Assembly: GCF_000826645.1 (NCBI RefSeq)
Contig: NZ_JXJP01000003.1
Coordinates: 248,001-312,000 of the forward strand
Length of the DNA: 64,000 nt
Source: Psychroserpens mesophilus
GTDB lineage: Bacteria > Bacteroidota > Bacteroidia > Flavobacteriales > Flavobacteriaceae
Direction: 5' to 3'
The stretch's first letter is position 1; the number at the start of each line of letters is the position of its first letter. The position numbers were made by a program, and so were the translations under genes. Under the pieces are notes generated by a model, which saw only the letters and a list, made by a program, of their open reading frames with translations, did no database searches and was not told the origin of the DNA. This document shows positions 62,247 through 64,000 of the stretch, piece after piece.

Positions 62247-62474
62247 ATGACTGAAACCGAACTTAAAAAAGCGTGGAAAAAAACAATGACACCATTTGTT
62301 GTTTTTGTTATTTTATTGATAGTTTCTGTTCTTTTTAATCGGCTTGGAAGTAAAAAACCTACACCTCAAACGGTTAGCCTCTTTGCGTCGGTATATAGTT
62401 TAACATTTACTATCTTTTACGGCATTAAAATCGTGTTATTCAGAAAAAAATTGAAACAGCTAAACAACAATTAA
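62247..62474 (+). CDS. Small two-helix membrane protein
   Basis: The 75-residue protein has two membrane helices (about 15-32 and 42-62) and basic ends. No family is recognised. It stops one base before gldF starts, so it is in the gldF operon and co-translated. A role in the Gld ABC complex is only positional. Confidence 0.7.
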   Translation: MTETELKKAWKKTMTPFVVFVILLIVSVLFNRLGSKKPTPQTVSLFASVYSLTFTIFYGIKIVLFRKKLKQLNNN

Positions 62475-63203
62475 ATGATTGCCATACTTAAAAAAGAAAT
62501 CAATTCGTTCTTCGCTTCACCCATTGGCTATTTAGTCATTGCTGTGTTCTTATCGATAAATGGCTTATTTCTATGGCTTTTTAAAGGTGAATTTAATATT
62601 CTAGATAATGGCTTTGCAGACTTATCAAGCTTTTTTTTACTGGCTCCATGGATTTTGATTTTCCTTGTACCAGCAGTGACTATGCGAAGTTTTGCTGATG
62701 AAAAAAAACAAGGCACATTAGAATTATTACTCACCAAACCTATCAGTCATTTACATATCGTTTTTGGAAAATATCTTGGAGCTTTTATTTTAATACTAAT
62801 GGCTTTAATTCCGACCTTACTGTATGTTTATACCATTTCAAAATTAGGAAATCCTGAAGGCAATTTAGATATAGGCAGCGTTATGGGTTCGTATTTTGGA
62901 TTGCTGTTTTTGGTTGCTGCTTACACTGCTATTGGTGTCTTTGCTTCAAGCCTGACAGATAATCAGATTGTCGCCTTTATTACTGCTGTGTTTATTAGTT
63001 TCTTCTTTTATTTTGGATTTGAAGGGCTTTCAAATTACAATCTGTTTGGAGATGCATTTTTTATAGAAAAACTAGGCATGGAATCTCATTTTAAAAGCAT
63101 GAGTCGAGGAATATTAGATACCAGAGACATCATTTACTTTTTGAGTGTAACTGCCTTATTTTTAACGTTTACAACGTTAAACATTAAACGTGCTAATCAA
63201 TGA
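62475..63203 (+). CDS. gldF: Gliding motility ABC transporter permease GldF
   Basis: The 242-residue permease has six membrane helices and starts MIAILKKEINSFFASPIGYL. It contains FLVPAVTMRSFADEKKQGTL near 62-81, typical of ABC-2 permeases. GldF with GldA and GldG forms an ABC system required for gliding in some Flavobacteria. The gldG gene follows, but only after a small extra gene. Confidence 0.9.
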   Translation: MIAILKKEINSFFASPIGYLVIAVFLSINGLFLWLFKGEFNILDNGFADLSSFFLLAPWILIFLVPAVTMRSFADEKKQGTLELLLTKPISHLHIVFGKYLGAFILILMALIPTLLYVYTISKLGNPEGNLDIGSVMGSYFGLLFLVAAYTAIGVFASSLTDNQIVAFITAVFISFFFYFGFEGLSNYNLFGDAFFIEKLGMESHFKSMSRGILDTRDIIYFLSVTALFLTFTTLNIKRANQ

Positions 63204-63688
63204 TAATTACAATTCCATTAGTCATATTGATGTGTGTTGTATTTGTACTTGTCTTTTTGTTTGTAAAAACAATTGATAAACGTAAATGGCTCACGTTATT
63301 TGTGAGTATAATGATAACCCCTTTTATCTATTTTTATGGCGTGTATCCTATGATTAATATTTTTAGCAATTACCATCATCAGAAGTATTTTTCTTCGGAA
63401 TTATGGATTGACAAGCCATCACTTCGTTATGAACTATCTGATGATTTGATGGCATCAGAAGTATTAATTGGAAAAACAAAAACTGAAGTCGAATCGCTTT
63501 TGGGAACTTATGAATGGTTAAGTTGGAATGACTTCAACAAAGATCACGATACTAATAAATGGAATTATAGTTTAGGAATTGAGCCTGGTGCATTTAATAC
63601 TGAAAAAGAATGCGTTGAGATTGTATTTAGCAATGATAAAGTCATTTCTATTAATCCCTTTAAAGAACCTATAAAATTTGATGATTAA
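63200..63688 (+). CDS. Membrane-anchored protein inserted between gldF and gldG, BamE-like end
   Basis: The 162-residue protein has two membrane helices (about 4-24 and 31-52). A soluble domain follows with LIGKTKTEVESLLGTYEWLS and NKWNYSLGIEPG, the LxGxTxxxVxxLLG...WxYxLG pattern of BamE/SmpA-like domains. It overlaps gldF by 4 bases (ATGA) and gldG by 8, so the three are translationally coupled. This gene is not part of the gldFG pair I know; its function is unknown. Confidence 0.72.
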   Translation: MIITIPLVILMCVVFVLVFLFVKTIDKRKWLTLFVSIMITPFIYFYGVYPMINIFSNYHHQKYFSSELWIDKPSLRYELSDDLMASEVLIGKTKTEVESLLGTYEWLSWNDFNKDHDTNKWNYSLGIEPGAFNTEKECVEIVFSNDKVISINPFKEPIKFDD

Positions 63689-64000
63689 AACTAAAAAACA
63701 TATCCTAATTGTATGCATCACATTGATAATTATCATTGTAATCAACTTGATTTCCAAACAAGTATACAAGCGGTTTGATTTAACAAAAGACAAACGTTAC
63801 ACCTTATCTGAAGCAGCCAAGCATACTATTGCAACTGTTGAAGCACCTTTAATAATTGATGTGTTTTTAGAAGGTGATTTCCCTTCAGAATTCAGACGAC
63901 TACGAAATGAAACGCAACAGATTCTTGAAGAATTTTCGGTAGTAAACAGTAACTTGATATTCAATTTTATTAATCCTTTAGAGGATAAATCTACACGAGA
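63681..64000 (+). CDS. gldG: Gliding motility ABC transporter substrate-binding protein GldG, N-terminal part
   Basis: The frame opens at ATG 63681-63683, inside the end of the preceding gene. It starts with a membrane helix (about 7-23), followed by KRFDLTKDKRYTLSEAAKHT and a conserved DVFLEGDFPSEF-like stretch. This is the usual N-terminal part of GldG, which is an exported membrane-anchored component of the gliding ABC system. The gene runs off the window. Confidence 0.85.
   Translation, partial: MIKTKKHILIVCITLIIIIVINLISKQVYKRFDLTKDKRYTLSEAAKHTIATVEAPLIIDVFLEGDFPSEFRRLRNETQQILEEFSVVNSNLIFNFINPLEDKSTR

Follow-up and report, generated by a model that had tools for sequence, protein, structure and literature searches.

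The question raised by this locus is why a gene for a small membrane protein lies between gldF and gldG, and whether its product belongs to the GldA-GldF-GldG ABC transporter that these two genes help to encode. GldF is the permease of this transporter, and GldG has a large periplasmic domain flanked by terminal transmembrane helices; to our knowledge, neither the substrate nor the role of GldAFG is known in the field, and whether gliding needs it is disputed. In F. johnsoniae, gliding and GldA localisation need both GldF and GldG, and the stability of GldK needs GldF (PMC9127263). Some Cellulophaga and Maribacter glide without GldF and GldG (PMC7440613), so a gliding phenotype for an additional gene at this locus is not assured. 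The position of gldG directly downstream of gldF has been described as highly conserved in Flavobacteriia and the two genes are contiguous in the described system (PMC5682007), whereas in the 64,000-nucleotide stretch of Psychroserpens mesophilus DNA analysed here (the window) another gene, called gene X below, intervenes. No description of a third gene between gldF and gldG was found in the literature searched, and as far as that literature shows the arrangement is an unreported variant of a known system.

The initial annotation of the window had placed a 162-residue ORF at the junction, overlapping both neighbours, and its coordinates are confirmed (Table 1). Both neighbours are clear members of the F. 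johnsoniae system, gldF by TIGR03518 (366 bits, cut-off 288.5) and gldG by TIGR03521; the complete gldG has 556 codons and extends past the window end (L032:5681-7351). The genes for the transporter ATPase, gldA, and for the gliding lipoprotein GldJ are found elsewhere in the same genome, each above cut-off. A second gldFG pair, which the initial annotation had raised as an argument against a link between X and the gliding system, was not found in this Psychroserpens genome, whose single gldF is the one beside X. Between the start of gldF and the end of gldG (L032:4475-7351) the plus strand has no TAnnTTTG promoter motif, and a terminator-like hairpin lies 3' of gldG, which together fit a single transcript; translation of gldF, X and gldG is probably coupled, as the overlaps suggest. 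A further ORF for a small membrane protein of 75 aa (window 62247-62474) abuts the gldF start exactly; it is found at seven of 208 gldF loci, all seven of them loci with X.

Table 1. Features of the gldF-X-gldG region, in window coordinates.
Feature	Coordinates	Strand	Evidence or remark
gldF, ABC-2 type permease, 242 aa	62475..63203	+	TIGR03518 1.2e-109, above cut-off; sole genome copy
ATGA overlap of gldF stop and X start, 4 bp	63200..63203	+	the same 4 nt at almost every Psychroserpens locus
Gene X, 162-aa membrane protein at the gldF-gldG junction	63200..63688	+	ATG 63200, stop 63686-63688
X predicted transmembrane helix 1, residues 5-25	63212..63274	+	AF2 model
X TM1-TM2 loop KTIDKRK, residues 23-29	63266..63286	+	charge analysis
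X predicted transmembrane helix 2, continuing as one long helix, residues 29-60	63284..63379	+	AF2 model
X predicted BamE-like domain, residues 66-159	63395..63676	+	alignment, AF2 model, structure matches
Overlap between X and gldG, 8 nt	63681..63688	+	
gldG, 5' part	63681..64000	+	ATG 63681; TIGR03521 123 bits, first 106 aa

Gene X is an old, maintained gene, as its presence across genera and its low dN/dS indicate. It is intact in all 22 same-genus genomes compared, with 58-86% identity and identical neighbours, and a profile search (full length, E below 1e-57) detected it in 71 of 397 Flavobacteriaceae genomes and 47 of 237 genera. These counts rule out a recent strain-specific insertion, and with aligned homologues only 47-86% identical to the window copy, the idea of a recent insertion put forward in the initial annotation finds no support. 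A scan of GTDB contigs confirmed 107 X loci; the best 80 of the 107, which were retained, represent Psychroserpens, Winogradskyella and Gelidibacter (the latter two through named contigs), together with Subsaximicrobium, Subsaxibacter, Ichthyenterobacterium, Mesoflavibacter, Mariniflexile, Algibacter, Tamlana and Aestuariibaculum, among others. X lies between gldF and gldG at each of the 137 loci with flanks, a partly redundant set in which some loci come from the same genome, and its start either overlaps gldF by up to 4 nt or follows it after a gap of at most 10 nt, such gaps replacing the overlap outside Psychroserpens. No copy of the X subfamily was found away from gldFG, and outside the Flavobacteriaceae a search of 395 genomes of the phylum gave nothing beyond weak homologues (E 1e-16 to 1e-17), in two other-family genomes. 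The gene is under purifying selection: the median dN/dS is 0.094 and the maximum 0.196 (54 pairs), about three times the rate of gldF (0.03), and 23 positions are invariant across 93 sequences. The association with gldFG is not due to chance, because the ORF is intact, has the same neighbours in all same-genus genomes compared and is under purifying selection.

The initial annotation took gldF and gldG to be normally adjacent. This is the case at 52 of the 208 loci read, with an estimated gap of -17 to +9 nt; at 112 loci the pair is split by X, at 41 it is fused and at three it is split by another gene. The fused form is a single frame of about 795 codons found in many genera (loci L172-L189, L191 and L232-L253, from other Flavobacteriaceae). 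In a GldF plus GldG tree of 190 non-redundant loci, one large clade of marine flavobacteria (support 0.966) holds 98 X loci and 37 fused loci and no adjacent pair; two further fusions (L185 and L188) lie among adjacent lineages and look independent. In 34 of the 37 fusions within the clade the interval from the YFLS motif through RFDLT is exactly 54 residues long, and this identical junction length argues for one ancestral fusion, so that fusion within the clade may have arisen only once. X and fused loci nevertheless interleave in the clade and the state changes even inside one genus, g232, where L190 carries X and L184 is fused while the C-terminal halves of their GldG proteins are sisters (SH-aLRT 99.9). 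Different gene parts give such loci different tree placements: near the junction, protein identity of L190 favours Algibacter-type X carriers, and its GldG C-terminal half pairs with the fused L184. This suggests that exchange of the junction by recombination underlies the switch in g232; in an AU test of the junction flanks without the linker, the grouping of L190 with L184 was not rejected (p 0.55). As to whether X could have arisen when a fused gene split, the GldF tail of X carriers looks nearer to that of unfused outgroups than to that of fused proteins, a comparison over five residues only. As for the three loci split by another gene, L197 has a GIY-YIG domain gene of 104 aa (L197:2681-2995, minus strand), and two lineages have related-looking proteins of about 210 aa (L258:2211-2858, plus strand; L268:2378-2998, minus strand) with signal-peptide-like starts and no Pfam family.

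The AlphaFold (AF2) model of X, built on 93 sequences (pLDDT 91), predicts two transmembrane helices followed by a compact domain made up of helices 66-71, 73-86 and 94-101 and then four strands, with conserved W106 and W109 and a WNYxLGxEPGA motif. Residues 22-30 have a net charge of +2 or +3 in 85 of 93 homologues, and the loop between the two helices is net positive in 92 of 93, which places this loop in the cytoplasm by the positive-inside rule. Residues 1-5 contain no K or R; the N-terminus is probably periplasmic, and the positive loop and the K/R-free start together mean that the C-terminal domain should face the periplasm. The initial annotation described this end of the protein as BamE-like. 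The predicted structure agrees, since the fold of residues 73-157 resembles BamE/SmpA-OmlA (PF04355) with its alpha-alpha-beta-beta-beta arrangement, and BamE structures match the model with VIA-align Z of 5-6.5 and Foldseek E of 0.0017 to 0.08 (prob 0.92-1.00; 0.99-1.00 for the best BamE matches). The sequence does not reach the family: X scores 17.8 bits against PF04355, under the Pfam gathering cut-off of 23.2, the homologue in L025 scores 21.6 bits, also under the cut-off, and a weak PF04355 match is seen in four of 15 members. No named Pfam or NCBIfam family covers X or its homologues above cut-off, and neither a profile search of the PDB with X nor searches with GldF or GldG returned a significant sequence relative. 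BamE is a lipoprotein, whereas X has two predicted N-terminal transmembrane helices and no lipoprotein-type N-terminus, and its gene is linked to gldFG and not to bam genes; X is not an outer-membrane lipoprotein of the BAM complex.

We propose, with moderate confidence, that X serves the GldA-GldF-GldG transporter as an accessory subunit specific to this clade and belonging to its GldF/GldG part. X would be made from an mRNA shared with gldF and gldG and be held next to GldF and GldG by two inner-membrane helices, with its BamE-like domain in the periplasm, where the large domain of GldG also lies. BamE is a small non-enzymatic scaffold in a membrane complex; X may likewise act as a small scaffold or adaptor, either docking GldG onto GldF or connecting the complex with a partner in the envelope, the part that BamE plays in BAM. 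Binding to GldF and GldG, this scaffold role and any consequence for gliding or the T9SS are what we infer from the gene layout and the model. The idea of a lineage-specific part of the complex, already offered in the initial annotation, is kept as a hypothesis because X occurs across the clade, keeps its position and close spacing, is under purifying selection and is a constant member of the gldF/gldG operon at the 137 loci with flanks. The only alternative to X seen in its clade is the GldF-GldG fusion, as expected if F and G form one unit including X, and closure of the junction by fusion where X is missing speaks for the two proteins working as a unit; this exclusion is, however, in part imposed by geometry, since X and fusion take up the same place. 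Also counting against a subunit, X evolves about three times as fast as gldF by dN/dS, and many flavobacteria run GldFG without X, from adjacent or fused genes, which makes X dispensable to the transporter at large.

Rather unlikely, in our judgement, is that X is a domesticated immunity-like membrane protein kept in the gldFG operon for its expression, where it would not touch GldFG and would instead shield some target in the envelope or serve an unrelated purpose. The top-ranked structural match in both Foldseek and VIA-align is BtiO, a T6SS immunity protein of Bacteroides fragilis (PDB 9uu1), ahead of the BamE structures; it is the closest solved structure (Z 10.9, 3.8 A, 94 of 101 residues, model residues 60-159), and the model of X has the BtiO-like fold at 20% identity. 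Unrelated genes, too, enter the junction, namely those for the GIY-YIG and ~210-aa proteins. A T6SS immunity gene, however, would be expected next to that of its cognate effector, whereas X is flanked by gldF and gldG at all loci and has no effector gene beside it; immunity genes are also usually mobile and fast-evolving, whereas X is conserved, not variable, under strong purifying selection and fixed in its synteny, and its subfamily was found only with gldFG. The weaker homologues of X are uncharacterised, scattered flavobacterial membrane proteins of 120-165 aa with the same C-terminal domain. They share with X the transmembrane segment or segments and an RYxMxDDxIxSxxLIGKxxxEVxxLLG-type domain (best E about 1e-7 to 1e-19), but at the loci read they do not lie beside gldFG and, apart from those near leuS, have unrelated surroundings, and they lack the W106, W109 and WNYxLGxEPGA set. 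X is the syntenic member of a larger scattered family and its only subfamily fixed to gldFG. With its homologues scattered as singletons, one of them encoded just after a DUF6973 protein, and an immunity protein as its top match in structure, X could have another task.

Returning to a direct role in GldFG, a more specific form of it makes X a dedicated non-covalent connector, the clade switching between this connector and the covalent GldF-GldG fusion, possibly through recombinational swaps of the junction; we regard this as improbable. That X is a bridge standing in for the covalent linker, so that lineages either fuse the chains or keep X, is to our minds distinctly improbable. X and fusion do exclude each other in the clade, which has no adjacent pair without X, and the switch of state inside g232 speaks for a bridge; the possible single origin of the 34 fusions with a shared junction length weakens, however, the statistics of this exclusion. 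Outside the clade the 52 adjacent loci have neither fusion nor X, so a bridge is not generally needed. It is very improbable indeed that X is a neutral or selfish insert which persists because the overlaps keep gldG translated: the junction accepts other genes at three sampled loci, but dN/dS well below 1, conserved residues and long persistence speak against it, and no degraded copies were noted.

With the accessory subunit as the preferred reading, X is a third, conserved membrane gene within gldFG in 47 genera and offers a new handle on the role of GldAFG. Loci that are naturally fused, adjacent or split by X can be compared to learn what keeps GldF and GldG together and what the periplasmic side does.

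Two arrangements were seen among relatives of the X domain. At L040:1603-2819 (minus strand), a 153-aa X-like membrane protein is encoded immediately 3' of a DUF6973 protein, in an effector-immunity-like arrangement. In the genome of the window itself, a one-helix homologue of the domain, about 120 aa long, lies directly after leuS (L033:2122-2484); homologues near leuS recur in several other Psychroserpens, and L038 has two tandem copies.
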